From: a virus
Virus record (IMG/VR): IMGVR_UViG_3300023172_004031
Span: 1 to 38,491 of that record
DNA length: 38,491 nt
Reading direction: 5' to 3' (one strand)
Numbering within the stretch: the first letter of the stretch is position 1; the number at the start of each line of letters is the position of its first letter. Of this stretch, positions 17,132 through 37,948 are shown piece after piece. Position numbers and translations under genes: made by a program. Below the pieces are notes generated by a model, which did no database searches, was not told the DNA's origin, and was given only the letters and a program-made list of their open reading frames with translations.

Positions 17132-18353
17132 GTTTTTTAAACAATCCTTCCAACCATTCTGCTGTCATTGGCTCTAAATAATCTGCGTAATGCTGTGATC
17201 TTATTTGATCAACTGACTGAATTGATTTCACTATATCAATTTCTTTTTCTTTGTCAATTACAACTGGATTATTAATCAAATTCTTTATTCTTTTGATCAA
17301 TACACTGTTTTCAGAGACTTTAATTAAATTATCATATGCATATTGTAGTATATGTGTTGGTACATTTTCTAATGATAAAAACGAATCATCAGGTTTTACA
17401 AAGGTATTCATAAACGGTGGCCATGTGTTTTTTGTTGTTTCTATAAAACTCTTTGACCATTTTTGTAATGCTGGTAAATTTTCAACATTAATAGCCAAAG
17501 GTACCACTGACATACCAAATGAAATGCTATTGTTTTTGCTGTAGTCTTTTAAATTTTGTATTCTTTCTTGAAATTTATCCCAATTAAAAGGATATCTTAT
17601 GTAATTATATGTGCTGTTGTATCCATCACAACTAATATTCAAATGCACCGATGCAAAACTATCTAATTTAGATAAAAATTCACTGGTAAATTTAGTAGCA
17701 TTAGTAGTAATTGACAAATTGATATTTTGAGAGTAATTCTTATTATTACATTCATCAAGTATATCAATAAACTTTTTTGATATTGTTGGTTCTCCACCGG
17801 TTACTTTTAACTGTTTAATTTGCGGAAGAAGACTTAAAATCTCATTGTACTCGTTTTCAGACACTTGCTGTATTGAATTTTGATCCATATTTTTTTCAGC
17901 AGTTGGACTTCTTAACCAATGCTTAGGCATGTAACTATTACTGTTCTCTAGTTGTTGCATATCATTACCAATCAAATGAGAACTGATATAAGAACACATT
18001 CTACATTTTAAATTGCATTCATTACTTAATTTTAAGTCAAGATATTTAATTTTAGGATTTTTTATATCAACAATATTACTAAATTTTTCAATATATCGTT
18101 GCCTAATACTCGAACCTGATACTTTTTCGTCTTTCCAACAAACATCACACAATTTATTTTGTACACCGGACAGCAGATCTGATCTTAACTGAGTCATAAT
18201 TTCACTGTCAAACCATTCCTGATACGACATATCACGTGTGGTATTTTCCCAAGATCCTGACAAAGAATTACAGCAAGGTTTAAACTTGCCTGATACTGCG
18301 GCATGCGAATGTATAAACGGTAAAGGGCAAAATGTTTTAGATTGTTCCGCCAT
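17124..18353 (-). CDS. Twitch-type radical SAM protein 9
   Basis: The 409-aa protein starts MAEQSKTFCPLPFIHSH at 18353, where AAGGA lies about eight bases upstream. In-frame starts back to 18410 would add residues unrelated to the family. It has Cys27-Cys28, CDVC (Cys69, 72), VSGSSIRQR, CNLKCRMC (Cys113, 117, 120), TGGEP and CDGYNSTYNYIRYPFNW. The C-terminal signature is VDQIRSQHYADYL. It is the more compact, AT-rich and Asn/Ser-rich kind, closest in feel to protein 8's radical half. It overlaps the end of protein 10 by 17 bases. Confidence 0.87.
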   Translation of the reverse strand: MAEQSKTFCPLPFIHSHAAVSGKFKPCCNSLSGSWENTTRDMSYQEWFDSEIMTQLRSDLLSGVQNKLCDVCWKDEKVSGSSIRQRYIEKFSNIVDIKNPKIKYLDLKLSNECNLKCRMCSYISSHLIGNDMQQLENSNSYMPKHWLRSPTAEKNMDQNSIQQVSENEYNEILSLLPQIKQLKVTGGEPTISKKFIDILDECNNKNYSQNINLSITTNATKFTSEFLSKLDSFASVHLNISCDGYNSTYNYIRYPFNWDKFQERIQNLKDYSKNNSISFGMSVVPLAINVENLPALQKWSKSFIETTKNTWPPFMNTFVKPDDSFLSLENVPTHILQYAYDNLIKVSENSVLIKRIKNLINNPVVIDKEKEIDIVKSIQSVDQIRSQHYADYLEPMTAEWLEGLFKKHA

Positions 18354-19821
18354 CTTCAAGTTCCTTTTCTTGTTGTTTCGAAACTGCTTCGCCAACCTGA
18401 ATTGGAACACTATTATCTAATGTTTCATCCATTAACCCTGCCATTTCAGGAAATGTTTTGCAGAAATCTGTACCACGATGTTGATCTAACTTAGTAAGAT
18501 ATTCTCTAAACTCAGGCATACGCACAGACCAATCTTCACTCATCATAAATTTGATCATGCCTTGTAATCTTTTAACGCCATAACTGGCCTGCATAAATTG
18601 TTCTTTTGTGACACCGTGCTGTTTGACACCAGTAAACCTATCCCAATTTTGCTCTAACCAAGGGTAAAATTCTTCATACTTTTGTTTTGTTTTATTTTTA
18701 AACCATTGTGGTAATGATTTGACATTTAATTGACCAGGCCAATACACAAAATGATAGTTGATCATGCCGGCACCAAAAGGCCAAACATTAATCTTTTTAA
18801 AATTTTGTTCAGTTTTCCATTTGATAAAATCAGGAATATAATGAATATTAAGTGCCTGCACAGCACATGCTACAGTAACTTCAACTTTGTCTTCTGTGTT
18901 GTCTAACAAATGAAACTGTTTAACTGTATGATCCCATTTTGATGGATAACGAATATAGTCGTTCATCTCACCAATTGAATCTACACTGTAATGAAATCTT
19001 ACTCTTTTAAAATGACTCCATAGATCAAACAAACGTTGTGGCATTTCTACAGCATTAGAGTTATAACGCAATTCAATCTTGGGTGCATATCCACGTTTAA
19101 CTACTTCTTCTAGCAGTGTATAGTGTTCTTCAATAATTGTTGATTCACCACCTGCAAAATACAATTGATACATGTGAGGAATTTGTTCGTACAACTGTTC
19201 CCAAAACACAGGATTATTCTTATGCCAGTTATATCCAGCACCGTGTACTTTACCTTTGTTATCCCATCCCATTGTTTGCTTTAACGATTCATTTTCAATT
19301 GTTGGGTAAACTGCATTCCAATCTTTAACCCATAAAGATGAATCATGAGGTGAACACATCACACAAGCAAGATTACATTTTGATCCCATACGTAAATCTA
19401 AATATCTTATTTTAGGTGGAATTGATCCATCTTCTGCTGTTTCACCAATAATATCTTCAATTGAATATCTGTTTAACCAATAATCAGTTTCCCACATTCT
19501 TTTTGAATTGTGTCCAGCTTCTTCTTCTTTGTAACATTTTAAACAACTAGGTGGTTTTTCTCCATTGAGCATCTGCTTACGAACATTTTTCATGTAGTCG
19601 TTGTTCCACGAACTCATCAGATCTGAATTGTTTAGGTTAGCCGGTACACCATCTTCTCTTTTTAGTACACCTACTTGTCCGCCATGTTCTTTATCGTTGG
19701 TTGGTCCAACACTACTTGCGTTTGCAGTGCAACACACTCTCATGTTGCCATCTGGTCTTGTTGAAAGATGCATCCACGGTAATGCACAAAAAGTTTTTGA
19801 TGGTAGTTTTTTATTATTCAT
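18337..19821 (-). CDS. Twitch-type radical SAM protein 10
   Basis: The 494-aa protein begins MNNKKLPSKTFCALPWMHLS, with Cys30-Cys31, CLKC (Cys93, 96), EEEAGHNSKRMW and CNLACVMC (Cys149, 153, 156). The SAM motif is AGGES in place of GGEP, and VDSIGEMNDYIRYPSKW follows. The C-terminal signature LDQHRGTDFCKTFPE is followed by an extra tail of about 30 residues rich in Glu and Gln. The FDLW and HFVYWP regions resemble proteins 6 and 7. The ATG at 19821 follows protein 11 by 14 bases with only a weak SD. Confidence 0.87.
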   Translation of the reverse strand: MNNKKLPSKTFCALPWMHLSTRPDGNMRVCCTANASSVGPTNDKEHGGQVGVLKREDGVPANLNNSDLMSSWNNDYMKNVRKQMLNGEKPPSCLKCYKEEEAGHNSKRMWETDYWLNRYSIEDIIGETAEDGSIPPKIRYLDLRMGSKCNLACVMCSPHDSSLWVKDWNAVYPTIENESLKQTMGWDNKGKVHGAGYNWHKNNPVFWEQLYEQIPHMYQLYFAGGESTIIEEHYTLLEEVVKRGYAPKIELRYNSNAVEMPQRLFDLWSHFKRVRFHYSVDSIGEMNDYIRYPSKWDHTVKQFHLLDNTEDKVEVTVACAVQALNIHYIPDFIKWKTEQNFKKINVWPFGAGMINYHFVYWPGQLNVKSLPQWFKNKTKQKYEEFYPWLEQNWDRFTGVKQHGVTKEQFMQASYGVKRLQGMIKFMMSEDWSVRMPEFREYLTKLDQHRGTDFCKTFPEMAGLMDETLDNSVPIQVGEAVSKQQEKELEDGGTI

Positions 19822-19835
19822 TTACTATACTTACC

Positions 19836-20912
19836 TTACTTAAATTGCGATGCAAAAGGATCAAATTCTACTCCACACTTCATTGAGCATACTTTTAATT
19901 TTCCATTATTACAACCAGAAATGTTCCAGCTGTTAGCAATATCATCAAATATACCAGTTTCAAACACTTGTTGTAGACCTTGTTTTGCATCAAGCATTTC
20001 TTTTCCGCCAACAGCATCAATATAATTCCATATCTGTTCTACTTTGGGATCTTTATGCCACCACTTGTACATTCTACCGGCTGTCCAACAACATGGTAGT
20101 GCTAGACCTTCTGCTGTGATAAACAGACTTTTTTCTTTGGCAACTTTGCAATTGATTGGCACTACATCATAATAAGCATCCATAGACCCATATTTTTCTA
20201 CCAATTGATCGTATTTTGATAGTTCTTTGTTTTGATATTTTTGATCTGGCTTTTTTAATTCTGTAGTTTTTTCACCTTTACGATTGACTGCTTGATGATA
20301 GTCTTTCTTTTCCGACGATGCAGTAATAAATCTGCCAGTTTTTTTAGAAGTAAAACTTTCAAAACCTATTTGTTCGCTTAATGCTTTTGCTTGTTCAACT
20401 TGATGCTGATTGTGTTCAAATATCAAATAATCCCAACGGGCTCTTCCGCCGGCTGAAACAAAACTATTCATTGCTGACTCTACTTTTGACCATTGTACAT
20501 TTTGTCTATACAAATGATTTGTTTCTTCTAATCCATCAACACTAAAAATCACATAACCGTTTGCACCAAATGTTTTTGCCAATTGACTCCACCACTGGTT
20601 ATCTCTTGCACCTGCGTTGGTATTCATACTCAACATCATATCTGGATTGTGATATCTAAAATACTCAAAAACCTCTAGTGTATCATCTGCCACAATTGGA
20701 TCGCCTAAATTACCACACATGTACATCTTTTTTAGTTGTTTAATAAACTCTGGTACAAATATCTTTTTACAATCATCTAATGTCAATTCATCAAGATTAA
20801 TATGAGGATTTAAGGCTCCGCCGTTCTGATTTCTATCGCACATAGGACAAGCCGCTTGACATTTTTGCGTGATTTCTAAATGAATTGTTCTGATATCTTT
20901 ATAATTGTACAT
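19836..20912 (-). CDS. Radical SAM protein 11, GNxGD type
   Basis: This is the first radical SAM gene to be transcribed. The 358-aa protein has CQAACPMC (Cys18, 22, 25), MCGNLGDPIVADDTL in place of GGEP, FSVDGLEETNHLYRQNVQW and FEHNQHQVEQAKAL. Auxiliary-cluster cysteines lie in INCKVAKEKSLFITAEG followed by LPCCW, with CNNGKLKVCSMKCG at the end. It is close in length and motif order to protein 3. The ATG follows the methyltransferase-like gene by nine bases. Confidence 0.86.
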   Translation of the reverse strand: MYNYKDIRTIHLEITQKCQAACPMCDRNQNGGALNPHINLDELTLDDCKKIFVPEFIKQLKKMYMCGNLGDPIVADDTLEVFEYFRYHNPDMMLSMNTNAGARDNQWWSQLAKTFGANGYVIFSVDGLEETNHLYRQNVQWSKVESAMNSFVSAGGRARWDYLIFEHNQHQVEQAKALSEQIGFESFTSKKTGRFITASSEKKDYHQAVNRKGEKTTELKKPDQKYQNKELSKYDQLVEKYGSMDAYYDVVPINCKVAKEKSLFITAEGLALPCCWTAGRMYKWWHKDPKVEQIWNYIDAVGGKEMLDAKQGLQQVFETGIFDDIANSWNISGCNNGKLKVCSMKCGVEFDPFASQFK

Positions 20913-26368: not shown

Positions 26369-27010
26369 TTATCTTGCTCCTGGGCTGTTTGATTTTGATT
26401 GTTTTACCATTTTGTATTGCAATTTGTTGGTTTGTACCACTGTACCATCTGCATCAACTATGAATCGAAGAAAGGTGATTTCTTGTCCCGACTGTTGAAA
26501 AACTTCAGTGGAAACATCAATTAATCTATAAGGATTTAATTTTTCTATCTTAACTGTAACAGGAACTTCTTTGCTTGGCACATATCCTTTTTCTATGAAT
26601 TGAGATTTTTGAGAAAACCAATGTGCATTTACGATGTATTCTCCAGGTAAAATTCCTCTTATGGTTACATTTTCTTCATTAAGCTCATGAACAAAACTAC
26701 CTGACTCGGTGTGTACAACATCATTTGAAAACCCAAGATCGTCTCTGTTCAGATTCATTAATCCTCGATCTTTTTGTTTGAAGAAAACAACATTGCCAGC
26801 TGGATCTTGAACATACAGATCTATGTCATCGTACATGCCTTTTGGCCACGACATTGTGATCATAAACTCAGCATTAACAACAATATCACCTTTTTTGGCC
26901 ACAGGATTTATCATCAAAAATGCAATAATAAAAAGCATAGCTATTCCTACTGTGATATTAAACAGCAGATCAATGAATGCAATGCTAGTCTTGTAAGAGT
27001 CTCTTCTCAT
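26369..27010 (-). CDS. ExbD-like single-helix protein with beta-rich outer domain
   Basis: One N-terminal helix (about residues 11-34) contains Asp14 in FIDLLFNI, the place where ExbD/TolR/MotB proteins keep a proton-carrying Asp. The remaining 175 residues are beta-rich, with DDIDLYVQDPAGNVVFF (about 61-77) resembling DUF2135-like modules. It overlaps the ExbB-like gene by 26 bases, which supports a two-gene motor-stator-like pair. In ExbD the outer domain engages TonB; no TonB is seen here. The family link is by topology and context, so it is tentative. Confidence 0.55.
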   Translation of the reverse strand: MRRDSYKTSIAFIDLLFNITVGIAMLFIIAFLMINPVAKKGDIVVNAEFMITMSWPKGMYDDIDLYVQDPAGNVVFFKQKDRGLMNLNRDDLGFSNDVVHTESGSFVHELNEENVTIRGILPGEYIVNAHWFSQKSQFIEKGYVPSKEVPVTVKIEKLNPYRLIDVSTEVFQQSGQEITFLRFIVDADGTVVQTNKLQYKMVKQSKSNSPGAR

Positions 27011-27539
27011 CTGTAGACAACTTTAACTGCTTCTCAAAATATGCTTCTAATCTAAAATACTGTACCTTAAGTAATAGACTTGATATCAAACCTACCATTG
27101 TGGTGTACAATGCTGTACTCATTCCCAAGCTCATTTTTTTTAAACTTTCCTGAACACTTATAGTATCACTGATATTGATGTCTGCGAAGGCACCATACAG
27201 CATCAAAATAAATCCAGCAACTGTGCCAATCAGTCCCATTGTCAAGCACATTTCACTAACAAACCAACCAGCTTCGTACTTGTGTTTTAGTGTTGGATCT
27301 AGATATGATTTATTGACATTGATTTTTGACAACTGCCATGCTTGAATTCCGCAATATATTGTCATTAAAAAAAATAAAAACAGTATTGCAAAACTGATTT
27401 TGGTTTGGTCTGCTGTCCATAGTCTTTCTATAACATCAAGTTCATAAGTAATAAACCCTGTTAATACTAAAACACACAGAAACCACCACCATTCTAAGAA
27501 AATTTTATGTTTGATTGTAAATGCTTTCAAAATACTCAT
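26985..27539 (-). CDS. MotA/TolQ/ExbB-family proton channel protein
   Basis: The 184-aa protein has four predicted helices (about 17-32, 48-66, 96-118, 143-160) and the family motifs MGLIGTVAGFILML (101-114) and GMSTALYTTMVG (139-150). Members form proton channels that power TonB, Tol, flagellar or gliding systems. The ATG at 27539 is chosen because upstream in-frame sequence is non-conserved and AT-rich. No SD is present, and a CATAAATA late-promoter-like box lies exactly five bases before the ATG. Which machine it powers is unknown. Confidence 0.78.
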   Translation of the reverse strand: MSILKAFTIKHKIFLEWWWFLCVLVLTGFITYELDVIERLWTADQTKISFAILFLFFLMTIYCGIQAWQLSKINVNKSYLDPTLKHKYEAGWFVSEMCLTMGLIGTVAGFILMLYGAFADINISDTISVQESLKKMSLGMSTALYTTMVGLISSLLLKVQYFRLEAYFEKQLKLSTDEKRLLQD

Positions 27540-27544
27540 AAAAG

Positions 27545-27552
27545 TATTTATG
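27545..27552 (-). promoter_or_regulatory. T4-type late promoter box (CATAAATA) for the ExbB-like operon
   Basis: The octamer differs from the T4 late consensus TATAAATA only in the first base. It ends five bases before the ATG at 27539, so transcription would start at the ATG. No SD lies between box and ATG. It is divergent from the plus-strand box at 27560-27567. Confidence 0.6.
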
Positions 27553-27559
27553 GTGAACT

Positions 27560-27567
27560 TATAAATA
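27560..27567 (+). promoter_or_regulatory. T4-type late promoter box (TATAAATA) for the nitroreductase gene
   Basis: This is an exact match to the T4 late promoter consensus on the plus strand, about 72 bases before the nitroreductase ATG. It lies back to back with the minus-strand box at 27545-27552, so two divergent late promoters fit in 23 bp. Confidence 0.65.
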
Positions 27568-27604
27568 TTATTAATGTACTTCTTACTATAACAGTTGTAG
27601 TACA

Positions 27605-27628
27605 TTATTTTAAACATGTTTAAAATAA
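27605..27628. repeat. 24-bp perfect palindrome in the nitroreductase leader
   Basis: The left arm TTATTTTAAACA is followed directly by its exact reverse complement, ending just before the AAGGAG ribosome binding site. It could be a protein binding site or an RNA hairpin that controls access to the SD. Confidence 0.6.
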
Positions 27629-27639
27629 GGAGAGAAAAA

Positions 27640-28281
27640 ATGTTATCAAATGCAGAAGTAAAAAAAGCAGTGCTAAGAAGTCAGCATTGTCAAAGAAACT
27701 TTAACTTAAATTTAGAAATGCCACAAGAAGATATTGATTTATTAGTTCATGCGGCAACTAATTGTCCTAGTAAACAGAATGCAGGTTTTTACAACTTACA
27801 TGTAATTACCAACCAAGATATTATTGAAAAAGTACATCAGCTTTCACCAGGTGCCCTAGCAGAAAATCTATCAACTGGCGAGAGATTAGAAGTTACCAAC
27901 AGCCAAGTTAAAGCCAATGTTTTATTTGTTTTTGAAGATAAACTTTTAGAAGATATGTCACCAAAATTCTTAAACAAATGGAATGACGGCGATGAAGCTA
28001 ATGAGAGAATGTTTATCAGAGATAAAGACACAGCAATTGGTATTGCCGCTGGTTACTTAAATGTTATTGCTAGTTTAATGCACTACGGTACTGGTTGTTG
28101 TCAGTGTTTTGACGGAGAAGAAATTCAAAAAGTTCTTGGATTAGCAAGAAGACCTGTGCTTATGATGGGTATTGGATTCAAAGATGCTGAAACAAGAAAT
28201 AGAAGAGAACATGCTACTGATTCAAATCTATTTTTTACAACAAACAAAAAAGAAGAAATTTCAGTAAACTATATCAAATAA
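27640..28281 (+). CDS. Nitroreductase-family flavoprotein
   Basis: This is the only plus-strand gene. The 213-aa protein has SQHCQRNF at the N-terminal FMN-phosphate site, AATNCPSKQNAG, and AIGIAAGYLNVIASLMHYGTGCC, all typical of the FMN-dependent nitroreductase fold. Members reduce nitro compounds, quinones or flavins with NAD(P)H; the substrate is unknown. The ATG at 27640 is chosen because AAGGAG lies eleven bases upstream. An earlier in-frame ATG at 27616 sits inside the palindrome with no SD. It has its own late promoter and a following terminator, so it is a one-gene unit. Confidence 0.85.
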   Translation: MLSNAEVKKAVLRSQHCQRNFNLNLEMPQEDIDLLVHAATNCPSKQNAGFYNLHVITNQDIIEKVHQLSPGALAENLSTGERLEVTNSQVKANVLFVFEDKLLEDMSPKFLNKWNDGDEANERMFIRDKDTAIGIAAGYLNVIASLMHYGTGCCQCFDGEEIQKVLGLARRPVLMMGIGFKDAETRNRREHATDSNLFFTTNKKEEISVNYIK

Positions 28282-28298
28282 TTTATACTTAAACAACG

Positions 28299-28322
28299 AA
28301 AGGCTGGATTAATCCAGCCTTT
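28299..28322. terminator. Bidirectional terminator between nitroreductase and hsp20
   Basis: The arms AAAGGCTGGATT and AATCCAGCCTTT are exact inverse repeats, giving a GC-rich stem with a short loop and A/T tracts at both edges. It lies between two convergent genes (stops at 28281 and 28375), the expected place for a two-way terminator. The trailing T-runs are short. Confidence 0.75.
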
Positions 28323-28352
28323 CAAATTGCATGTTTAATTAAAAGAGAATCA

Positions 28353-28370
28353 GATTATATTTATAATCTA
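28353..28370. repeat. AT-rich hairpin after hsp20
   Basis: AGATTATA and TATAATCT are exact inverted arms separated by TT, five bases beyond the hsp20 stop. It could stabilise the hsp20 mRNA end ahead of the terminator. The low GC content makes it weak as a terminator. Confidence 0.4.
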
Positions 28371-28374
28371 AAAA

Positions 28375-28818
28375 CTACTTGATCTCAATTGATCTTGGCT
28401 TTTTACCTTCTGGAACGATTCTTTCCATAGATACTTTTAACAAGCCGTCTTTCAACTCAGCACCTTTGACTTCCACGTCATCAGCAATTGTGAATGATCT
28501 TGTGAACTGTCTTTTTGAAATGCCTCTGTGTAGTACACCATCAGCATCTTTGTCTTCATCTGTTTTTTTAACAGATTTCACAGTTAACACATTGTCAGCA
28601 TAGTCTACAGTGATGTCGTCTTTTGAAAAACCAGCAAGTGCCAGTTCTACGTCATATGTATAGTCACCTGTTTTCACAATGTTGTACGGTGGAAAATTAA
28701 CTGTAGGTGCGTTGAATGTCCAATTGTCATCAAACATACTTTCGAAGTGATCGAATACGTTGTCAAATCCTACAGTGTAAGGTCTTAGTTGATTAAAAAT
28801 AGATAGATGTTTTGTCAT
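28375..28818 (-). CDS. hsp20: Small heat-shock protein, Hsp20/alpha-crystallin family
   Basis: The 147-aa protein has a central alpha-crystallin domain (about residues 35-130) with ELALAGFSKDDITVDY and NVLTVKS, and a C-terminal IEI motif (I-x-I) that fills a groove on the next dimer. Small heat-shock proteins hold unfolded proteins without ATP. T4-like cyanophages and relatives carry such genes, often late in infection. The ATG at 28818 has a strong AAAGGAGGAG SD; an in-frame start seven codons earlier is poorer. An exact TATAAATA box lies about 66 bases upstream. Confidence 0.94.
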   Translation of the reverse strand: MTKHLSIFNQLRPYTVGFDNVFDHFESMFDDNWTFNAPTVNFPPYNIVKTGDYTYDVELALAGFSKDDITVDYADNVLTVKSVKKTDEDKDADGVLHRGISKRQFTRSFTIADDVEVKGAELKDGLLKVSMERIVPEGKKPRSIEIK

Positions 28819-28883
28819 TTTAACTCCTCCTTTAAGCAAGTTATATTTGTTTATGTAGATCCTATCTAAGCAATCTACATGTG

Positions 28884-28891
28884 TATTTATA
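28884..28891 (-). promoter_or_regulatory. T4-type late promoter box (TATAAATA) for hsp20
   Basis: An exact T4 late consensus on the minus strand, followed by a leader of about 60 bases with an extended SD before the hsp20 ATG. Its upstream edge overlaps a perfect inverted repeat at 28888-28909. Confidence 0.68.
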
Positions 28892-28909
28892 CAGCATTTT
28901 TGCTGTATA
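28888..28909. repeat. Inverted repeat touching the hsp20 late promoter
   Basis: Nine-base arms TATACAGCA and TGCTGTATA flank a TTTT loop. The repeat overlaps four bases of the TATAAATA box. It may be an activator or repressor site, or the 3' hairpin of the upstream transcript. Confidence 0.5.
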
Positions 28910-28943
28910 CTATTAATATAGTAATTCTTTTAAAATTTACGAC

Positions 28944-29177
28944 CTATTTTGGATAAATTAATTTAATTTTTTTTCCAACTTCTGTGTTAGAGGGCAAATC
29001 CTGGTATATTTGTAAAAATTCTTCTAATACTCCTTTATAAAAAAGAGTACTGTCATGATCTACTTTTTGGTTGATTTTGCTCAATGACAAATTATCTGCT
29101 GTTTGTAAAATTTGCAATGCTAGGCTTGATTCTACTTGAAGCTGTCTTAAAGATAAATTGTTAATATCTACATTCAT
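28944..29177 (-). CDS. Small hypothetical protein, 77 aa
   Basis: The protein is mainly helical (LRQLQVESSLALQILQTADNLSLSKINQKVD, shown here only to describe character) with no membrane helix or metal motif. The ATG at 29177 forms an ATGA overlap with the stop of the upstream radical SAM gene, which supports real translation and a link to it. A small partner or substrate-like protein for that enzyme is possible but not shown. Confidence 0.55.
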   Translation of the reverse strand: MNVDINNLSLRQLQVESSLALQILQTADNLSLSKINQKVDHDSTLFYKGVLEEFLQIYQDLPSNTEVGKKIKLIYPK

Positions 29178-30367
29178 GTATTATATGTCCAATTATATAA
29201 TTCTAAATTAACGTCTTTTAATTTTTCAGAACGAATTGTGTCTAAAATGTCATTGTTGTTTTTAAAAATTTCTAAATTTTTAAATCTTTCTTTGTCGTGT
29301 TTTTTCCAATTGTTGGCAGTAAACACTTTTTCTAGATGTTTTTTAACTGTTTGATTTTTTATTTTAGAAATTCTACTTTTTAAAATTTCTAAATGATCAT
29401 GCGATAGAATTTTAATTGCGTCTAAATCATTAGTAAAAACATATTCAGATACCACTGGAATATCTACCTTTTCAAGCCAACTGTCAAAATCAAGTATTTT
29501 ATTGATTGTGTAAATATTAGTTGCTAGATGTAGTCTATATTTTGTATTTAGGTTTTGATTAGCAAAATCTTTCCATTTGTAAACATTTTCTTCAAATGTA
29601 TTCCAAACCAATCCTTTTCTTACATATTCAGCTAACTTCCCAGTACTTTCAATACTTGACCGTATATCAAATCTTTTAAAGCGAGAAAAAATATCTAATT
29701 TTTTTTGTTTTGGAAAAATAGAAGTATTGGTGTTAATCTGCATTGACAACTTAGATATATCTGTTTTTCTTTCAAGCAGTTCTAAGAAATTTTCAAAATT
29801 TCGTGCCATAAAAGGTTCTCCGCCAAACACTGCAACATCTCTTAATTTTGAAAGATCTTGCTTTTCAAGATGAAAAAGGAACTCTTTTTCATGATCAATT
29901 GTTTGTGTTGCTGTCATGAGAATTTCTTTATCAATATTTCTTCTATTATACTGGTCATAAAGACCAAGCTGTTTCATTTTGACAATATCTTCGTTCCATT
30001 CTGTACTAAGTTCAGGACTACAATATCTACATTTAAAGTTACAAAAATTTGAAAAAGAAACTTGTAAATTTACAATTTCACCAATTTTTAAACTGTCTAA
30101 AAAATTTTGATCTGTGTCATACAGAATATCTTGTGTTCTCATACTGGTTCCTGTAGACTCTTCGGCTTGAAAACATTTTTTACATTGAAGTTGTGATAGA
30201 TTTTTGTAATTTATATCTTTGTTGATTTTTATATTTTGAAAGTGTTTATCAATATCTTTAGTGTGTAAATCACTATCAGATAACTTGTATCGACAACACG
30301 GCATAACACCATATGGTTCGTATGCTAAACCATTTGTAAGCCAATAGCATCCTCTTTCATTAGACAT
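29174..30367 (-). CDS. Twitch-type radical SAM protein 12 (outside the main array)
   Basis: The 397-aa protein begins MSNERGCYWLTNGLAYEP, followed by Cys24-Cys25 (MPCCRY), CKKC (Cys62, 65) and EESTGTSMR. The core is CNFKCRYC (Cys109, 113, 116), with FGGEPFMAR and then IESTGKLAEYVRKGLVW in place of the usual DGxGxxxEYxRYP. The C-terminal signature is LDTIRSEKLKDVN. The start at 30367 is chosen because an extension to 30424 would read through the tRNA-Ala gene. It is more diverged and AT-rich than the main array. Confidence 0.87.
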   Translation of the reverse strand: MSNERGCYWLTNGLAYEPYGVMPCCRYKLSDSDLHTKDIDKHFQNIKINKDINYKNLSQLQCKKCFQAEESTGTSMRTQDILYDTDQNFLDSLKIGEIVNLQVSFSNFCNFKCRYCSPELSTEWNEDIVKMKQLGLYDQYNRRNIDKEILMTATQTIDHEKEFLFHLEKQDLSKLRDVAVFGGEPFMARNFENFLELLERKTDISKLSMQINTNTSIFPKQKKLDIFSRFKRFDIRSSIESTGKLAEYVRKGLVWNTFEENVYKWKDFANQNLNTKYRLHLATNIYTINKILDFDSWLEKVDIPVVSEYVFTNDLDAIKILSHDHLEILKSRISKIKNQTVKKHLEKVFTANNWKKHDKERFKNLEIFKNNNDILDTIRSEKLKDVNLELYNWTYNT

Positions 30368-30385
30368 AACTTTACCCACTATATA

Positions 30386-30461
30386 TGGTGGAGCCAAGGA
30401 GGATCGAACTCCTGACCTCCACACTGCCAGTGTGGCGCTCTCCCGGCTGAGCTATGGCCCC
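30386..30461 (-). tRNA. tRNA-Ala (anticodon GGC), CCA encoded
   Basis: The acceptor GGGGCCA pairs with TGGCTCC (one G-T pair). The anticodon stem-loop CCACA-CTGGCAG-TGTGG gives anticodon GGC, and the T-arm has AGTTCGATCC. An encoded CCA ends at 30386. It lies 10 bases after the rimK stop and 18 bases before the start of radical SAM gene 12. Confidence 0.95.
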
Positions 30462-30470
30462 ATTGTTAAA

Positions 30471-30499
30471 ATTATACTGCATTTATTTTAAATTTGCAA
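30471..30499 (-). promoter_or_regulatory. Likely sigma70 promoter for tRNA-Ala and radical SAM gene 12
   Basis: On the minus strand TTGCAA (30494-30499), a 17-bp spacer and a consensus TATAAT (30471-30476) precede tRNA-Ala by nine bases. The -10 box contains the rimK stop codon. The -35 box is a partial match. Confidence 0.5.
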
Positions 30500-31359
30500 T
30501 ACTGTACTATTTCTTTTGCAACATCTATTTTACAATACTTTTCAAATCCTTCAAATCCAGGTGCGGAATTGGCTTCACAAACCTTGTAGCCATTTTCATC
30601 AAACAACAAATCAACTCCAGCAATATCAAGATTAAGCAGTTTTGCTGTTTCTGTAGCAATGTAGGTTATTTCATCATCTAAAGGATACAATTCTCCTACT
30701 CCGCCTCTTGTGATATTGGCTTTGAAACTGCCGTCTTGACTAGATCTTTTCATTGCACCAATTGGTTTGTTTCCAATTACCAATACTCTTAAATCTGTAC
30801 CAGGTTGACTGCTGATATACTCTTGAATAATAATATTCAGTGGTGATTTTAAACTTTTGATAAATTCTGCTAATTCATTTAATGCTGATTTGTTTGGCAC
30901 AAGGTGTATGCCTTGTCCATAACTACCACTCAGCACTTTGATTACACATGGAAAGCCTATTTGTTTTTCAACTAGTTCTTCATCTACAGGAAAACGTACC
31001 AACATGGTTCTTGGAATTGGTATGTTGTGTTGTGCAAGAATCTGTGTGGAATACATTTTGTCTTTGACTGCTTCAATGCTGTCTCCTGTATTAACAACAG
31101 GCACATGAAGTCTTTCCAAATGTCTTAGCACACTGAGAGCATAATAACCTGTGCCACTGCCAGTTCTAGGCAACACTAATTTTGGCAAAGCAACAGGTTC
31201 GCTGTTAACACGAATACTGCGTCTATCACTTCTAGTTACAATTAAATCAACTTCGTCAGGTGTCACAACTTTGATATCTAATTTTTGATTATTGGCTTCT
31301 TCAATAATTCTATTAGCTTCATAGTCTAATTCATGATCTTTTCTAAAATACCAAATCAT
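30472..31359 (-). CDS. rimK: RimK-family ATP-grasp glutamate ligase
   Basis: The 295-aa protein has an N-terminal pre-ATP-grasp domain (TRSDRRSIRVNSEP), an ATP-binding strand-loop (PCVIKVLSGSYGQGIHLV), DLRVLVIGNKPIGAMKR and the metal-binding end VCEANSAPGFEGFE. RimK adds glutamates to the C-terminus of ribosomal protein S6, and relatives ligate other amino acids to peptides. It lies between tRNA-Asp and tRNA-Ala in one transcript. With bS21 and IF-3 nearby, ribosome modification is the likeliest role, though a peptide ligase for the radical SAM pathway cannot be excluded. Confidence 0.88.
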   Translation of the reverse strand: MIWYFRKDHELDYEANRIIEEANNQKLDIKVVTPDEVDLIVTRSDRRSIRVNSEPVALPKLVLPRTGSGTGYYALSVLRHLERLHVPVVNTGDSIEAVKDKMYSTQILAQHNIPIPRTMLVRFPVDEELVEKQIGFPCVIKVLSGSYGQGIHLVPNKSALNELAEFIKSLKSPLNIIIQEYISSQPGTDLRVLVIGNKPIGAMKRSSQDGSFKANITRGGVGELYPLDDEITYIATETAKLLNLDIAGVDLLFDENGYKVCEANSAPGFEGFEKYCKIDVAKEIVQYCKFKINAV

Positions 31360-31375
31360 AATTTCTCTTCAAAAC

Positions 31376-31452
31376 TGGCGGGAGCGAAGGGACTCGAACC
31401 CTCGACCTCCTGCGTGACAGGCAGGCGTTCTAACCAACTGAACTACGCCCCC
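31376..31452 (-). tRNA. tRNA-Asp (anticodon GTC), CCA encoded
   Basis: The acceptor GGGGGCG pairs with CGCTCCC. The anticodon loop CTGTCAC gives GTC, and D- and T-arms are complete (GGTTCGAGTC). CCA is encoded at 31376-31378. It lies 16 bases before the rimK start and two bases after tRNA-Val. Confidence 0.95.
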
Positions 31453-31454
31453 AG

Positions 31455-31530
31455 TGGTGGGTGATAACAGACTCGAACTGCTGACCCTCTCGGTGTAAAC
31501 GAGATGCTCTACCAACTGAGCTAATCACCC
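31455..31530 (-). tRNA. tRNA-Val (anticodon TAC), CCA encoded
   Basis: The acceptor GGGTGAT pairs perfectly with ATCACCC. The anticodon stem-loop TCTCG-TTTACAC-CGAGA gives TAC. CCA is encoded at 31455-31457. The first base of the tRNA is also the last base of the speD TAG stop codon, so cutting at the tRNA 5' end would remove the final base of that stop codon from the speD message. Confidence 0.95.
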
Positions 31531-31901
31531 TAAATTTCAATCTCTGTTAAACCTTGTTCTCTATTTAAATACTTATACTCAAGTTTAACAGGTTCAAATT
31601 GTTTTAATTCTTCAAAAATTATTTCAGTTTTCAAATCTCCACACGTGTAAACATCTAACTGTAGCAATCCTGGATCAGTTTCGTCCCAACAATGTAAAGC
31701 AATATGAGATGTTTCTATAATTACTAATCCAGTTAAACCTCTATTACCAGGTATATCTAAATAGGTAGTGATTGGACCTTGACATATTTGCATACCAATT
31801 TTCGACACTAGTTCAGTTAACCAAGTGTGAGCCCACTTTTGATTAGTTGGTGGTTTATTTACTTCTGCTCTTATTATCAAATGTTTGTGTTGTACTGTCA
31901 T
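31530..31901 (-). CDS. speD: S-adenosylmethionine decarboxylase proenzyme
   Basis: The 123-aa protein has the processing-site motif ETSHIALHCWDE, where Ser65 would become the pyruvoyl cofactor after self-cleavage, and the later LLQLDVYTCGD. SpeD makes decarboxylated SAM for spermidine synthesis. Marine cyanophages also carry speD. Its by-product pathway yields methylthioadenosine, a substrate for the nucleosidase in this window. The ATG follows the stop of radical SAM gene 13 by one base. Confidence 0.93.
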   Translation of the reverse strand: MTVQHKHLIIRAEVNKPPTNQKWAHTWLTELVSKIGMQICQGPITTYLDIPGNRGLTGLVIIETSHIALHCWDETDPGLLQLDVYTCGDLKTEIIFEELKQFEPVKLEYKYLNREQGLTEIEI

Positions 31902-31902
31902 A

Positions 31903-33270
31903 TTACCTTTCTAACACTAGAGGACAAGATTTTTGTATATCCATATTCCTATTCTTATCTAAAACTCTATTAAAATTTACAAAATCTTCATAGTATTTTT
32001 TATGTTTGTTATTTTCTATACAACTTTCTAACCAATTTATAACATTATTAAACTGTGTTTGCAAGTTATATTTTTCTTTTTCATCTTTCATTTGATTTTT
32101 TAATTTTTCTAGATCTATATCTTTTATTTTTTTAATACTATCTTGTAATATACCAATAGGTAATACATTTGAATGCAAATGTTTTGGCCATTGTAATCTT
32201 GATGTATGCCAGTTACAACCAAGCTCATTTATAATCCATAATCCTGTTTCTGACAAATAAGGAGTATTTAATGCTTGAACTGTTGTAGTTGCTTTAATTT
32301 CTATTTTATCTTTTAATTCTTTTTTTGCTATTGTAATATTTTCTTTAAGAACACTATTATCTGCACCATGCCTAATGTATTCATTTCTTATTGGATCACC
32401 ATCAATACTTATTGTTAATTTTACCTGTTTAAATTTTTTCCATAGATCAATTATATCCATTTTTTTATTAAAATTTAATTTGCTTAAATTAGTACTGTAT
32501 TTTAAAATAATGTTTTCTGTACTAATATTGTCTTGATCTACTAGTATGTTAATAATTTTAAACACCAAAGGATCTAACAAAGGTTCGCCACCTGCAAATT
32601 CAATTTCATCTAATGATGGTGCTAGTTCTTTAAACTCATCTATAAATTTTTCTTGTTGTTCAAATAAATTTATCAAAGGTGTTTTATTCATGTTGAATCG
32701 CTTGATATCATTTTCAACTGGTTCACGATCTCCTTCTGGATAAAACTCTTTTACACTATCCCAATCTGCCATCCATGGTGTTGAGTCTTTTGGCCAACAC
32801 ATACGACACTTAAAGTTACACAAATTAGAAGGCTTTAATTCTAGTACAGGTATTTGAAATGGAAATGTAGATGTATTTCCTTTATAAAATTCTAACCAAG
32901 AACTAACATTGTTGTGATAATCGTCTAACCTTGCAATATTTTGTCCTTGCCTTAAACTCATAATTCCTTTTGCTTCCATAGACCAACAATTGGCACACTC
33001 TTTTAGTTTGGTTTTATCACCTTTGATCATTGCTTCTCTAACAGAATTCATTTTGTTGCTGTACCAAATATCTTTAAATGTTGTATCAGCCGCATCTGCA
33101 ATTTTGTGTGAGCGACAACACAATTTGATTTGTCCGTTAGGGGTAGTGCTTAGATGAATAAAAGGTTGAATACAAAAAGTTTCTTTATTAAAATCATAAT
33201 CTAAGTTTTTAGACAAATTTTCAATCTTACTTAGAGAGTATTCTGTGTGTTCTTTATTTGAATTAGGCAT
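31903..33270 (-). CDS. Twitch-type radical SAM protein 13 (outside the main array)
   Basis: The 455-aa protein has a 30-residue leader before TFCIQPFIHLSTTPNG, then Cys51-Cys52, CANC (Cys92, 95), CNFKCRMC (Cys151, 155, 158), AGGEPLLDP and IDGDPIRNEYIRHGAD. The C-terminal LDKNRNMDIQKSCP matches the array signature. CNFKC rather than CNLKC is shared with protein 12. It sits between nadE and speD, both of which handle nucleotide or SAM metabolism. Confidence 0.88.
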   Translation of the reverse strand: MPNSNKEHTEYSLSKIENLSKNLDYDFNKETFCIQPFIHLSTTPNGQIKLCCRSHKIADAADTTFKDIWYSNKMNSVREAMIKGDKTKLKECANCWSMEAKGIMSLRQGQNIARLDDYHNNVSSWLEFYKGNTSTFPFQIPVLELKPSNLCNFKCRMCWPKDSTPWMADWDSVKEFYPEGDREPVENDIKRFNMNKTPLINLFEQQEKFIDEFKELAPSLDEIEFAGGEPLLDPLVFKIINILVDQDNISTENIILKYSTNLSKLNFNKKMDIIDLWKKFKQVKLTISIDGDPIRNEYIRHGADNSVLKENITIAKKELKDKIEIKATTTVQALNTPYLSETGLWIINELGCNWHTSRLQWPKHLHSNVLPIGILQDSIKKIKDIDLEKLKNQMKDEKEKYNLQTQFNNVINWLESCIENNKHKKYYEDFVNFNRVLDKNRNMDIQKSCPLVLER

Positions 33271-33276
33271 GACATT

Positions 33277-34047
33277 TTATTGTTTTTTAAATATTGGTAT
33301 TGGTTGCATTTTATGTAGGTTTGGTTTTCTTATACTATGATATTTATGTAATAAATCAATGTCTCCTATAGATAAAAATTTTTCTTCGCTTTCATCTATA
33401 ATTGTTTCATCTAACATCATAGCTCTTTCCATTTGTTCATAGGTTAGTCCGCCTAGTTGATCTAAATCAGTTCTGCCATCTTCCCACAAACCATCTGTAG
33501 GTGGTGCATCTATAATTTCTTGTAGTATGTTTAAATCTTTGCCTAACTGCCATACTTGTGATTTCATTAGATCAGCAATTGGAGATATGTCTACACCACC
33601 ATCACCGTACTTGGTATAAAATCCAATGCCAAAGTCTTCTACCTTGTTGCCTGTTCCAACAACTAATCCTTTTGTGGCTCCGGCAATGTGATGCAGTGCC
33701 GCCATTCTTATTCTTGATTTAGAATTAGCAAAAGCATGTTGATTGTTAAAATCAATCTGCATTTCAAATTTAAATGCATTATAAGTAGTGTCTAGATCAG
33801 TTATAATGTGTTTAACATTTGTAAATTTGTTAACCAACCATTCACCGTGTTTAATACTTAGATCGTGTTGTGATTGTATTTGTTTGATTGGCATTGATAC
33901 CGCATACACAGGCAATTCTGTCATAGCACACAAAGTGCTAACCACAGAAGAATCAATGCCTCCTGATATGCCTACAACTAAAGTTTTACGATTATTAGTT
34001 TGTGCATAATCTTTGATCCAATTTGAAATTTGATCTTGTATTTGCAA
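33277..34047 (-). CDS. nadE: NH3-dependent NAD+ synthetase
   Basis: The 256-aa protein has the pyrophosphatase-loop motif GISGGIDSS (26-34), GTGNKVEDFGIGFYTKYGDG and DGRTDLDQLGGLTYE, all typical of NadE. It amidates nicotinic acid adenine dinucleotide to NAD using ATP. The glutaminase domain is absent, so free ammonia is the nitrogen donor. The start is a TTG at 34047 with AGGAG about nine bases upstream; the bS21 stop lies between them. A phage could use it to keep NAD supply during infection. Confidence 0.92.
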   Translation of the reverse strand: MQIQDQISNWIKDYAQTNNRKTLVVGISGGIDSSVVSTLCAMTELPVYAVSMPIKQIQSQHDLSIKHGEWLVNKFTNVKHIITDLDTTYNAFKFEMQIDFNNQHAFANSKSRIRMAALHHIAGATKGLVVGTGNKVEDFGIGFYTKYGDGGVDISPIADLMKSQVWQLGKDLNILQEIIDAPPTDGLWEDGRTDLDQLGGLTYEQMERAMMLDETIIDESEEKFLSIGDIDLLHKYHSIRKPNLHKMQPIPIFKKQ

Positions 34048-34052
34048 AGGAC

Positions 34053-34385
34053 CTATCTCCTTTTGTGTTTTTTTGGTAAGGAGCCAAACTCTTCTATTTC
34101 TCGTTCACGTCTTAATTTTGCCGCTCTACGAACTGCACGTTTTTTATCTTCACGTTTTATAAAAGAAGGTTTTGAGTAATAGCGTCTATCACGAAGTTCT
34201 TGCATTACTCCTTCTTTCAACAGCATTTTTTTAAGTTTACGCATAGCACGGTCTACATTGTTATCTACAACTGCTACAGCCATACCAGGTAACTTTGGAG
34301 GTCTTGCTTTTTTAAAGTCCTTTTTCTTATGACCTATGTCAAAGGATTGGACATCATATTTTTGTCTAGGTTTTGAAGTTTTCAT
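34053..34385 (-). CDS. rpsU: Ribosomal protein bS21, long form
   Basis: The 110-aa protein contains the bS21 core VDNNVDRAMRKLKKMLLKEG, then LRDRRYYSKPSFIKREDKK and a basic tail. The core is preceded by about 37 extra residues, making it longer than the usual 60-75 aa. bS21 binds near the anti-SD of 16S rRNA and affects initiation. Viral bS21 is known from Pelagibacter phages. The ATG at 34385 has no SD, and a TTGACA/TAAAAT promoter ends eight bases upstream, so it may be leaderless. Confidence 0.9.
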   Translation of the reverse strand: MKTSKPRQKYDVQSFDIGHKKKDFKKARPPKLPGMAVAVVDNNVDRAMRKLKKMLLKEGVMQELRDRRYYSKPSFIKREDKKRAVRRAAKLRREREIEEFGSLPKKHKRR

Positions 34386-34393
34386 AATAGTTT

Positions 34394-34421
34394 ATTTTAG
34401 CATCATTAGATTATTTGTCAA
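34394..34421 (-). promoter_or_regulatory. Sigma70-like promoter for bS21
   Basis: TTGACA (34416-34421), a 16-bp spacer and TAAAAT (34394-34399) lie on the minus strand, ending eight bases before the ATG. The -35 box contains the IF-3 stop codon TGA. It would give a leader of only a couple of bases. Confidence 0.62.
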
Positions 34422-34972
34422 CTCTTTTTTGCATCATTATCTTTACAAACAACTGCTAATATTCTATTCCCAGTTTGTTTTGGTTCAGAATCAAATTTAG
34501 TGTTAGATAACTGCTTGATTATCATTGTTACTTGGTCAACAAACATTCTACCATTTGGAATTTCTCTACCTCTTAATTTCATAACTATTTTAACTTTATC
34601 ACCATCATCTATAAATTCTTGTGCTTTTTTAAGTTTTACATTAAGATCATGCACATCAATATTTGGCCTAAATTGTAGTTCACGCAGTTCTACTCTATTT
34701 TGCCTTTCTATTTTCTTTTTTTGTTTTTCTTTTTTTTGTCTTTCATAATTCCATTTACCAAAATCTTGTATTTTACAAACAGGAGGATCTGCTTTAACAG
34801 TTGTACAGATCAAATCTAATCCTAGTTCTTTGGCTTTGGCAAGAGCTGTTTTACTATCAACTACACCTATAAATGCTCCATTGGGATCGATCAATCTAAT
34901 TTTAGGAAATGTAATTGCTGAATTTAACAGTACACTTGGTTGAGAAAACTTATTACGAAATGGTTTTTTCAC
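34418..34972 (-). CDS. infC: Translation initiation factor IF-3
   Basis: The 184-aa protein has both IF-3 domains: PKIRLIDPNGAFIGVVDS and LDLICTTVKADPPVCKIQDFGK (N-terminal), then a Lys-rich linker and VELRELQFRPNIDVHDLNVKL with IVMKLRGREIPNGRMFVDQ (C-terminal). IF-3 controls start-codon choice on the 30S subunit. The start is GTG at 34972, overlapping the ClpX stop by one base (TAGTG). Bacterial infC usually precedes rpmI and rplT; here bS21 follows instead. This context suggests a captured gene. Confidence 0.92.
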   Translation of the reverse strand: MKKPFRNKFSQPSVLLNSAITFPKIRLIDPNGAFIGVVDSKTALAKAKELGLDLICTTVKADPPVCKIQDFGKWNYERQKKEKQKKKIERQNRVELRELQFRPNIDVHDLNVKLKKAQEFIDDGDKVKIVMKLRGREIPNGRMFVDQVTMIIKQLSNTKFDSEPKQTGNRILAVVCKDNDAKKS

Positions 34973-36231
34973 TAGGCGTTGCTTTTCTTTTCTTTAGATT
35001 CAAAAATAATCATTGGTTCATTTTCTTCTAAAATTACTTTGTCGTTGATCACTATCTTTTCTGCATGTTGTTGTTTTAGTTTAGGTAACTCATACTGTAA
35101 CTGAAGCAACACTTTTTCAAGAACAGAACGCAATCCTCTAGCACCAATGTCTTTTTCTAATGCCTGTTTTGCTACACAATCTACTGCTTCTTTGGTAAAT
35201 TCTAATTTTATACCATCAAGTTTAAACATTTTTTCAAATTGTTTTAATACTGCGTTTTTTGGTTTGACTAGAACTTCTTTAAGATCGCTGTGTGTTAAAC
35301 TATGACAAGCAACTACTACAGGTAGTCTACCAACCATTTCAGGTATTAGACCAAATTTAACAACATCATCTGGTTGTACCTTTGATAGTATTTGATCTAT
35401 TTTTTCTTGTGTTTCGACTGTGGACATGAATCCCATAGTTGAATTTACATTTAATCTACGTTTTACAATTTCATCTAAACCAACAAATGCTCCTCCACAT
35501 ACAAATAATATGTTTGTAGTGTCAACTTCAATCATTTCTTGCTGTGGGTGTTTTCTACCGCCTTGTGGCGGAACTCTAACCACCGTACCTTCAAGTAACT
35601 TTAAAAGTGCTTGTTGCACACCTTCACCTGATACATCTCTTGTAATTGATGTTGATTCTGACTTTCTAGATTTTTTGTCTACTTCGTCAATATAAACAAT
35701 ACCGCGTTGGGCTCTATCAACATCAAAATCACAACTTTGTAATAATCTTAAAATGATATTTTCTACATCATCGCCCACATAGCCACTTTCAGTTAGTGTG
35801 GTTGCATCTGCTTGAGCAAAAGGTACATCTAGATAATCTGCAATCTTTTTGGCAAGCAGTGTTTTACCACAGCCTGAAGGACCAACTAACAGTACATTTG
35901 ATTTTTCTAATTCTACATCATCAACGACGGGATTGTTTAATCTCTTATAGTGATTGTAAACTGCAACACTTAAAACTTTCTTTGCTTGATCTTGACCAAT
36001 AACATGTTGATCTAGATGTGTTTTTAATTCTTCTGGTATAATTTCTTTAAGTTTATGTGTGTGAACTTTCTCATGTGAATTTTGTAAATCATTTTCTTCT
36101 AATATTGAATGGCATAGTTGCACACATTCATTACAAATATAAACCTTTGGGCCTGCTATTAATTTTCTTACTTGAGCTCTTTCTTTACCACAAAACGAAC
36201 ACGAGTAAGCATCATCTTTTTTCTTTGGCAT
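34972..36231 (-). CDS. clpX: ATP-dependent protease ATPase subunit ClpX
   Basis: The 419-aa protein has an N-terminal zinc-binding domain (Cys11, Cys14, Cys33, Cys36), Walker A GPSGCGKT (117-124), the pore loop GYVGDD (150-155), Walker B VYIDEVDK (179-186) and RLPVVV near sensor 2. The ClpP-docking IGF loop is present as MGF in NSTMGFMST. It unfolds tagged proteins and feeds ClpP. ClpP is 11 kb away rather than adjacent as in many bacteria. The ATG at 36231 has AAGGA upstream and follows a small ORF by one base. Confidence 0.95.
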
Positions 36232-36232
36232 T

Positions 36233-36457
36233 CTAATCCTTTTTATCTATTTTACCAACATAAGGTTTAATCCAACCAACCGATTTAGGTTTATCTTTTG
36301 ATTGTTTTAAATTATCGGCTTTCATTGTTTTATTTATAATAACACGATTTTGCTCTGTGTCAATCTCTTTTTTGGATTCTACTAAAGATACATTTAGATT
36401 TTCACGAAACTTCATGATAATTTCTGGCCTTCCCATTAACTGGTTCAGTTCTACCAT
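36233..36457 (-). CDS. Lys/Asn/Asp-rich ORF, perhaps the frameshifted tail of the coiled-coil protein
   Basis: From the ATG at 36457 this ORF encodes 74 residues beginning [17 protein letters not shown] and ending [14 protein letters not shown]. There is no good SD. The same frame stays open upstream to about 36580, where an A-run ends the coiled-coil gene. A -1 slip there would join both frames and add about 113 residues. As a stand-alone gene, initiation at 36457 or at an internal ATG at 36325 (five bases after a TATAAATA box) is possible. No family recognised. Confidence 0.45.
36331..36338 (-). promoter_or_regulatory. Internal TATAAATA box, five bases before an in-frame ATG
   Basis: An exact late consensus on the minus strand lies inside the 36233-36457 ORF. 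An ATG at 36325 follows at the same five-base distance seen at the ExbB-like and coiled-coil genes, and would encode a 30-aa peptide. It also could serve clpX. It may be chance in AT-rich sequence. Confidence 0.35.
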
Positions 36458-36573
36458 TTGTTTGGCTGGTGGTTTGATATCAATTTCTTCAACTTTTATT
36501 TGATTATCATTGGATTTTTGTTTTTTAAACTCAACATTATCTTTTAAAGAAATATTTAGATTATCCTTATTCT

Positions 36574-37935
36574 CTAGTCTTTTTTTTTCTTAACTTGATC
36601 GTTTGATTTAACCTTAACTGTTTCATCAATATTAATCACAGTTTTTTCTGGTTTATCTTCTAGACTTTTTTGATAATCTAACTGTTCTTGTAATTCTTGT
36701 TCTGCTTGTGAAAGTTTTTCGCGAAACTCATCTAGTTCTTTTTCATGTCTTTTTTTTAGATTGTTAACTTCTTTTTGATTATCTTCTGTTTTAGAATATC
36801 TTTTTACTAATTCCGGATCATACTGTTTTTCAAAACCTCTACCAAAACGTCTAATAAAAGACATATTGGCCGCAATTAAAAGCAATACAGCAAGTGGATC
36901 AAAAACAAATATAATAACAATAATAACCCAACGTACTGCTTCTTCTAATAGATCTTTGTCAGCATCTTGTCCATACACAAACTCTGCAATGTATTTTAAA
37001 GGTCCAACTTCAACTTCTAGTTTTTGCTGTTCCATTACTAGTACAAGTTTGTCTTCATTTACTATGTTCATTTCTTCTTGTTCTGTTTCAATAAGTATTT
37101 CTAATTCATTTATCTTAGTATCGATATCACCTGTTTTATTATTTGCTTCTGCTCTAAGAGATGTAATTGTTTCATTTATATCTTGTATTTGATTTTTATA
37201 ATTATCATCAATCTTTACAAGATCTTCTTTGAGTTGATTTTGTATTTCTACAATGAGTTTTTGTGCCGCAGAAGCAACAGCAAGTTCGTTTGATTTGGCT
37301 TGTTCTATTGCTTCGTCTAAACCTGATTTACTAAATGCACCTTTGTAACGTTCCTGCGCCGCGGTAATATCTGCATCTTTACGTTCTTTTGCCTGTTGAA
37401 TTCTGTCTTGTTGTAGTTGTATTTCTTTGTCTGCTTGGATTGTTAGTGCATCTTTTTCTTCTTTTATTCTAGCATATATGTTTGCTAGTTCTTGATTCTG
37501 TTTATCAATTAATATATCAACACGAACATTTTCACCACTGTTGAGTCTTGTAATTTCATTTGACCATCTTTCGATTTTAGTTTGAGAGCGTAAAAGTTTT
37601 TCTTCAATTTGATCTAACTGTAGAGACTGTGTAGATCCTAGCGATGCTTGTTCAACGTGTGCTTTAGATAAAAATCCAAATATACCCATTGATGTTATAA
37701 ACATCAATACTACAACTGCCGCACTCAAATAAGATTTAATAAGACGTGGGGCTACTTTCCAATTTTGGTATAGCCACGAAGCAGTTACTAGTTTACCTAC
37801 TTCAAGAACAGTCCCCATAATCATAATAGGAATTGCCGCCGCGGCAAAAATAGCCGCCAAGCCTGCAATTGAATAGTAAATTGCTACCGCTGAAATGCTG
37901 AGTGCAGTCAGCAATGTTATAATTGCCATGAACAT
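36574..37935 (-). CDS. Membrane protein with long coiled coil, 453 aa
   Basis: Three hydrophobic segments (about 3-24, 25-45, 70-90) lead into a coiled coil at about 95-305, rich in Glu, Gln and Lys heptads (QLDQIEEKLLRSQTKIERW). A further helix at about 335-360 (WVIIVIIFVFDPLAVLLLI) and a second coiled coil (about 375-430) follow. The end is Lys-rich: VKKKKD before TAG at 36574-36576. It resembles scaffold-like envelope proteins in design, but no family is recognised. The ATG at 37935 sits five bases after CATAAATA with no SD; a second ATG lies two codons later. Confidence 0.72.
   Translation of the reverse strand: MFMAIITLLTALSISAVAIYYSIAGLAAIFAAAAIPIMIMGTVLEVGKLVTASWLYQNWKVAPRLIKSYLSAAVVVLMFITSMGIFGFLSKAHVEQASLGSTQSLQLDQIEEKLLRSQTKIERWSNEITRLNSGENVRVDILIDKQNQELANIYARIKEEKDALTIQADKEIQLQQDRIQQAKERKDADITAAQERYKGAFSKSGLDEAIEQAKSNELAVASAAQKLIVEIQNQLKEDLVKIDDNYKNQIQDINETITSLRAEANNKTGDIDTKINELEILIETEQEEMNIVNEDKLVLVMEQQKLEVEVGPLKYIAEFVYGQDADKDLLEEAVRWVIIVIIFVFDPLAVLLLIAANMSFIRRFGRGFEKQYDPELVKRYSKTEDNQKEVNNLKKRHEKELDEFREKLSQAEQELQEQLDYQKSLEDKPEKTVINIDETVKVKSNDQVKKKKD
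36577..36588 (-). other. Candidate -1 ribosomal slippery site (A-run)
   Basis: Just before the TAG of the coiled-coil gene, three AAA codons follow AAG and precede GAC, giving a heptamer A AAA AAA in the correct register for a -1 slip. The -1 frame is then open for about 113 codons to the stop at 36233. No clear upstream SD-like or downstream stem stimulator was found, so a homopolymer indel is also possible. Confidence 0.4.
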
Positions 37936-37940
37936 ACTAT

Positions 37941-37948
37941 TATTTATG
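37941..37948 (-). promoter_or_regulatory. T4-type late promoter box (CATAAATA) for the coiled-coil gene
   Basis: The octamer is identical to that before the ExbB-like gene and ends five bases before the ATG at 37935. No SD lies between. It falls in the short gap after the QueD-like stop at 37961. Confidence 0.55.

Follow-up and report, generated by a model that had tools for sequence, protein, structure and literature searches.

Late promoter boxes placed five bases ahead of start codons predict leaderless late mRNAs in T4-related marine phages

The closest described counterparts of the arrangement reported here are the late promoters of phage T4 (gp55/gp33/gp45), which have the same octamer, TATAAATA, no −35 element, and, likewise at +1, a preference for purines. 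The cyanophages Syn9, S-PM2, P-SSM2 and P-SSM4 are similar in having (N)ATAAATA boxes and gp55 homologues, and leaderless mRNAs such as that of lambda cI resemble the messages predicted here in having an AUG at the 5′ end and no Shine-Dalgarno (SD) sequence. However, lambda cI is a single regulatory gene, whereas the genes described below would form a whole class that is expressed late, includes structural genes, and is tied to the promoter of a phage sigma factor. A published study of pelagimyophages was unsuccessful in predicting middle and late promoters (PMC7029224), a paper on phage AR9 gives 5′ UTRs of 26–491 nt, and one on a marine methylophage describes no leaderless late mRNAs in T4-like phages. 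We found no description of such messages in T4-like phages in the literature searched, which covered few subscription papers, and their novelty is therefore not certain.

The window, which is the whole stretch of DNA analysed, is a complete IMG/VR record of 38,491 bases, with nearly every gene on the − strand. It contains radical SAM genes and genes for ClpP, ClpS and ClpX, FeS assembly proteins, IF-3, bS21 and Hsp20, together with four tRNAs; about ten genes in a row (6028–20912, −), on this single phage contig, match PHROG radical SAM families. No gp55, gp45 or gp33 gene is present in this fragment. One relative, contig G001, is 100% identical to it across an ExbB-like protein, and a coiled-coil protein, which has no Pfam match, is 90% identical in G002, 73% in G003 (92 kb) and 69% in G004 (65 kb), with further homologues in G008, G010, G011 and the pelagimyophage Mosig. 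The 328-kb contig G008, the closest near-complete relative, was found with others through a gp41-like helicase; it encodes T4-type gp23, gp20, gp17 and gp43 and has a weak tblastn match to gp55 (26% identity, E about 1e-9), from which it follows that the window's group is T4-related. Judged by these genes, the source of the window is a T4-related marine phage. Matches to gp55 are likewise weak in G009 but strong in the pelagimyophage HTVC008M and in the cyanophages, and the gene is annotated in Mosig; gp45 was found in the pelagiphages and not in G008. Relative to HTVC008M and Mosig, the kin of the window are more distantly related and carry genes for IF-3 and ClpX, among others. An apparent uL11 ribosomal protein gene in G003 (L023 8833–9255, −) reaches 59% identity at best, to proteins of diverse bacteria; with matches at this level scattered over phyla, it was set aside as uninformative about the host.

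The boxes and genes with which we are chiefly concerned are as follows.

37941–37948, − strand: T4-type late promoter box CATAAATA, followed by atagt and the ATG (37935–37933) of the coiled-coil gene
36574–37935, − strand: coiled-coil protein gene, 453 aa, its ATG at the predicted transcript +1
36331–36338, − strand: box TATAAATA, followed by aaaca and ATG (36325–36323), the third site
28884–28891, − strand: late box TATAAATA with a long SD-type leader before the Hsp20 gene; a similar box is present in G002, G003 and G004
27560–27567, + strand: divergent box TATAAATA before a nitroreductase gene, with a long leader containing an SD
27545–27552, − strand: box CATAAATA, followed by ctttt and the ATG (27539–27537) of the ExbB-like gene
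26985–27539, − strand: ExbB/MotA/TolQ-like gene (PF01618, E 1.5e-9), start at 27539

The sequence-only reading had pointed to three boxes lying exactly five bases ahead of an ATG (here termed N5), and all three are present on the − strand as described. It had also remarked that none of these ATGs has an SD motif at the usual place, which is correct and follows from the box itself filling positions −13 to −6. Three occurrences of YATAAATA-N5-ATG in the window compare with 0.19 expected from dinucleotide shuffles, in which three was never reached in 100, and with 0.23 per window when any first base is accepted (NATAAATA-N5-ATG, third-order Markov sequence). ATAAATA itself is depleted, with 7 observed against 18.7 expected; one of the other boxes, at 33348, is within the NAD synthase gene, and another, at 28365, lies between two convergent genes, within the inverted repeat AGATTAT-AAAT-ATAATCT. 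Two late boxes at 27545–27567, one on each strand and separated by 7 bp, face away from each other before divergent genes. Three cases in an A+T-rich window, one of them different in kind, could be put down to coincidence, but given these expectations, and how strongly the pattern recurs in independent contigs and in isolates, such an account is scarcely credible, and we regard it as ruled out by the shuffles, the Markov expectation and the permuted-word controls described next.

The census covered six related contigs, which are metagenomic and together hold 201 boxes in 612 kb; for every ATAAATA the offset to each ATG opening at least 60 codons was recorded. The counts at offsets 0 to 10 are 0, 1, 1, 0, 0, 28, 2, 3, 14, 1 and 2, followed by a broad hump at about 17–35. 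N5 accounts for 28 of the 201 boxes (13.9%, or about one in seven), as against 0.3% in controls made by permuting the word in 20 ways (11,770 occurrences, composition unchanged), and the binomial p is about 6e-37 for 29/201. Some orthologues are common to these contigs, and the number of separate gene families carrying N5, counted by eye, is about 23. Ten other T4-like marine contigs have N5 at 16 of 218 boxes. Octamers like TATAAATA are in this way placed non-randomly before genes and at defined offsets to their starts, as in T4-type late promoters. The proposed spacing is strongly enriched both in the related contigs and in isolated pelagiphages, so that the refuting condition set by the sequence-only reading, a lack of such enrichment genome-wide, did not arise; but its restriction to exactly five bases is too strict, as N8, corresponding to a 3-nt leader, forms a second allowed class. 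In these contigs 0- and 3-nt leaders are frequent, whereas those of 1 or 2 nt seem to be avoided (N6 2, N7 3).

A phage-by-phage census, confined to the first ATG of ORFs of at least 40 codons, shows how unevenly the arrangement is distributed. N5 is found at 9 of 45 boxes in HTVC008M, 7 of 52 in Mosig, 13 of 102 in G008, 6 of 14 in G013 and 6 of 37 in G003, so that the two pelagimyophages have the same arrangement as the window's kin at nine and seven genes, respectively. In contrast, neither T4 (0/65) nor KVP40 (0/35) has a single N5 box before such an ORF (Fisher p 5e-6 against the kin), and T4 uses longer leaders, 25 of 31 with an SD. The cyanophages are close relatives of Mosig (gp23 about 61–65% identity), yet Syn9 (0/38), S-PM2 (1/59), P-SSM2 (2/66) and P-SSM4 (2/47) together have N5 at only 5 of 210 boxes; for the two pelagiphages combined the count is 16 of 97 (Fisher p 2e-5).

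The ATGs at N5 are true gene starts. They open at least 40 codons in 29 of 34 cases in the kin and 16 of 17 in the pelagiphages, as against 22% of all ATGs, and the start codons at N5 in the kin are exclusively ATG (28, with no GTG or TTG). All nine in HTVC008M coincide with annotated CDS starts, those of a 2OG oxygenase, CsgF, the tail tape measure, a DNA end protector, a transcriptional regulator, the baseplate tail tube cap, a baseplate wedge subunit, the baseplate wedge initiator, and a hypothetical gene following the major head gene; by homology the class also includes the terminase large subunit (G008 and G013), the portal (G013), and virion proteins. The nine HTVC008M ATGs lie, in order of position, at 6280, 7562, 16007, 18916, 19456, 31132, 49760, 75559 and 142360. 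It could be argued that the A, T and G belong to the promoter, through an initiator preference for TATG, and that translation starts elsewhere or from an upstream transcript, and a T does precede the ATG in 96% of N5 cases and is also common at that position in the long-leader boxes. However, the N5 ATGs nearly always open long ORFs, match annotated starts, and mostly have no upstream in-frame ATG and a stop close by. We consider this account very unlikely; the N5 peak is explained by translation and not by promoter sequence.

The position of the transcription start can be judged from boxes at other spacings. Among the long-leader boxes of the kin, a purine occupies the position six bases past the box (N5+1) in 87% of cases (A in 73%), whereas the preceding five bases are purines in 37–62%; the corresponding figure for T4 at the same position is 88%. 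This position agrees with that at which T4 late transcripts begin. All of the N8 cases with no earlier ATG have a purine at N5+1, which fits a 3-nt leader. For N5 boxes the preference places +1 on the A of the ATG, as the sequence-only reading had proposed, and a start there is thus predicted from the spacing and the purine preference together. An SD-like motif precedes the start in 4 of 28 N5 cases and 0 of 12 N8 cases (together 4/40), as against 43 of 71 in the long-leader class, and the N5 genes therefore combine an AUG start with an SD that is mostly absent, as leaderless mRNAs do.

The absence of a −35 element bears on a further alternative, according to which host sigma70 reads the boxes as −10 elements (extended, TATAAT-like), and the messages, leaderless or nearly so, are early and host-driven. 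The likeness of TATAAATA to a −10 hexamer and the perfect TTGACA at 16 bp at the 36338 site both speak for it, but matches to TTGACA at 5–6 of 6 positions accompany 2% of N5 boxes compared to a background of 8%, with no enrichment in either the N5 or the N8 class. Moreover, several N5 genes are structural, and TATAAATA is the known T4 late consensus. Host sigma70 recognition is accordingly rejected for the class, for which we think it unlikely, and accepted for the 36338 site alone, where a −35 element is present.

The best explanation, to which we assign a probability of roughly 0.83, is that the N5 genes are expressed from leaderless late mRNAs. A gp55-type late sigma factor, bound to the RNA polymerase of the host, would direct recognition of (N)ATAAATA with no need for a −35 element, and transcription would start six bases past the box. 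For about 14% of the group's boxes the start codon would then sit on +1, and the mRNA would begin with 5′-AUG; translation of this leaderless message would probably be initiated by 70S ribosomes with fMet-tRNA. We infer these 5′ ends, the use of gp55 and the mode of initiation from the pattern of the boxes. A second subset would have a 3-nt leader of the form purine-N-N-AUG, and most of the remaining gene-preceding boxes would act at offsets of 13–44 bases, usually with an SD. Because the box occupies the SD position, read-through transcripts are expected to yield little translation of an N5 gene, and transcripts from the gene's own late promoter to be translated efficiently.

Within the window, the leaderless scheme would cover the coiled-coil and ExbB-like genes, whose sites (ATG 37935 and ATG 27539) are members of the N5 class. 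The coiled-coil box is kept in all close relatives covering the site, at N5 in G002, G005 and G008 and at N8 in G003 and G004, although several of these five have a different sequence upstream. At the ExbB-like gene N5 is seen only in the window and G001, the latter with an identical copy of the box, and the orthologues in G002 and G003 have leaders of N26 and N25, respectively, so that the N5 state is not fixed for a given gene. An ATG at 27617 was rejected as the ExbB-like start, since the orthologues align from residue 10 and begin near 27539.

The sequence-only reading had further suggested that a phage encoding its own IF-3 and bS21 might favour leaderless messages, and this found no support, the pair showing no association with the N5 class. 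HTVC008M and Mosig have the class together with bS21 and no detected IF-3 homologue, while G010 and G011 encode both IF-3 and bS21 and have few N5 cases. According to a review, IF-3 mainly inhibits leaderless initiation, with mixed results (PMC9031893). The reading of the messages as leaderless is thus retained for its N5 enrichment, its +1 on the ATG and its general lack of SD motifs, and dropped in respect of IF-3 and bS21 and of the 36325 site.

More tentatively, and at a little less than even odds, we suggest that the T4-related phages of some marine hosts, namely the pelagiphages and the kin of the window, have joined the late promoter to the start codon as a single unit, mainly with 0- and 3-nt leaders, leaving terminase, portal, tape-measure and other late genes leaderless. 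The trait would track the host translation system rather than phage kinship, being present in the pelagiphages and largely not in their close cyanophage kin. The rule NATAAATA-N5-ATG or NATAAATA-N8-ATG may serve to locate the late promoters of pelagimyophages and the real starts of their genes, in a group for which promoter prediction was reported to have failed (PMC7029224). If confirmed, this would mean that a lytic phage uses leaderless messages systematically in expressing structural genes, and would offer an accessible example of an mRNA format fitted by a phage to the ribosomes of its host; the class is open to direct test in cultured pairs, with HTVC008M or Mosig on Pelagibacter HTCC1062.

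The third site is of a different kind, and lies among the following features.

36580–36588, − strand: A9 run immediately ahead of the stop codon of the coiled-coil gene, probably a −1 slippery site; present in five phages, whose protein identity goes as low as about 69%
36233–36580, − strand: −1 frame extension, 115 aa, containing ATG 36325 and ending just before clpX
36336–36363, − strand: sigma70-like promoter, TTGACA (36363–36358), N16, TATTAT (36341–36336), kept in G002, G003, G004 and G008
36331–36338, − strand: TATAAATA overlapping the sigma70-like −10, not a normal leaderless start
34972–36231, − strand: clpX, followed by infC (34418–34972) and bS21 (34053–34385); Pfam PF06689, PF07724, PF05198, PF00707 and PF01165

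This site had been counted with the other two, but it is outside the leaderless class. The perfect TTGACA stands 16 bp before TATTAT inside the −1 frameshift extension, and ATG 36325 opens no separate normal gene: the reading frame around it extends without a stop from 36580 to 36233, and just 30 codons come after it. In G008 the late box is lost, reading TATTAATA, whereas the sigma70-like elements persist. Within the span of the promoter 0 of 15 codons for conserved residues change synonymously, as against 10 of 24 elsewhere in the aligned part (Fisher p 0.006; four phages, counted by hand). The site is most likely an early promoter for clpX, infC and bS21, which probably form its transcription unit. 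The −1 extension is open in all five phages examined, at 89–120 aa and with a similar C-terminal part, and the +1 frame is closed. With a conserved slippery run and a conserved predicted product in all five, the A9 run and the −1 frame probably constitute a programmed −1 frameshift, or slippage, giving the coiled-coil protein a C-terminal extension.
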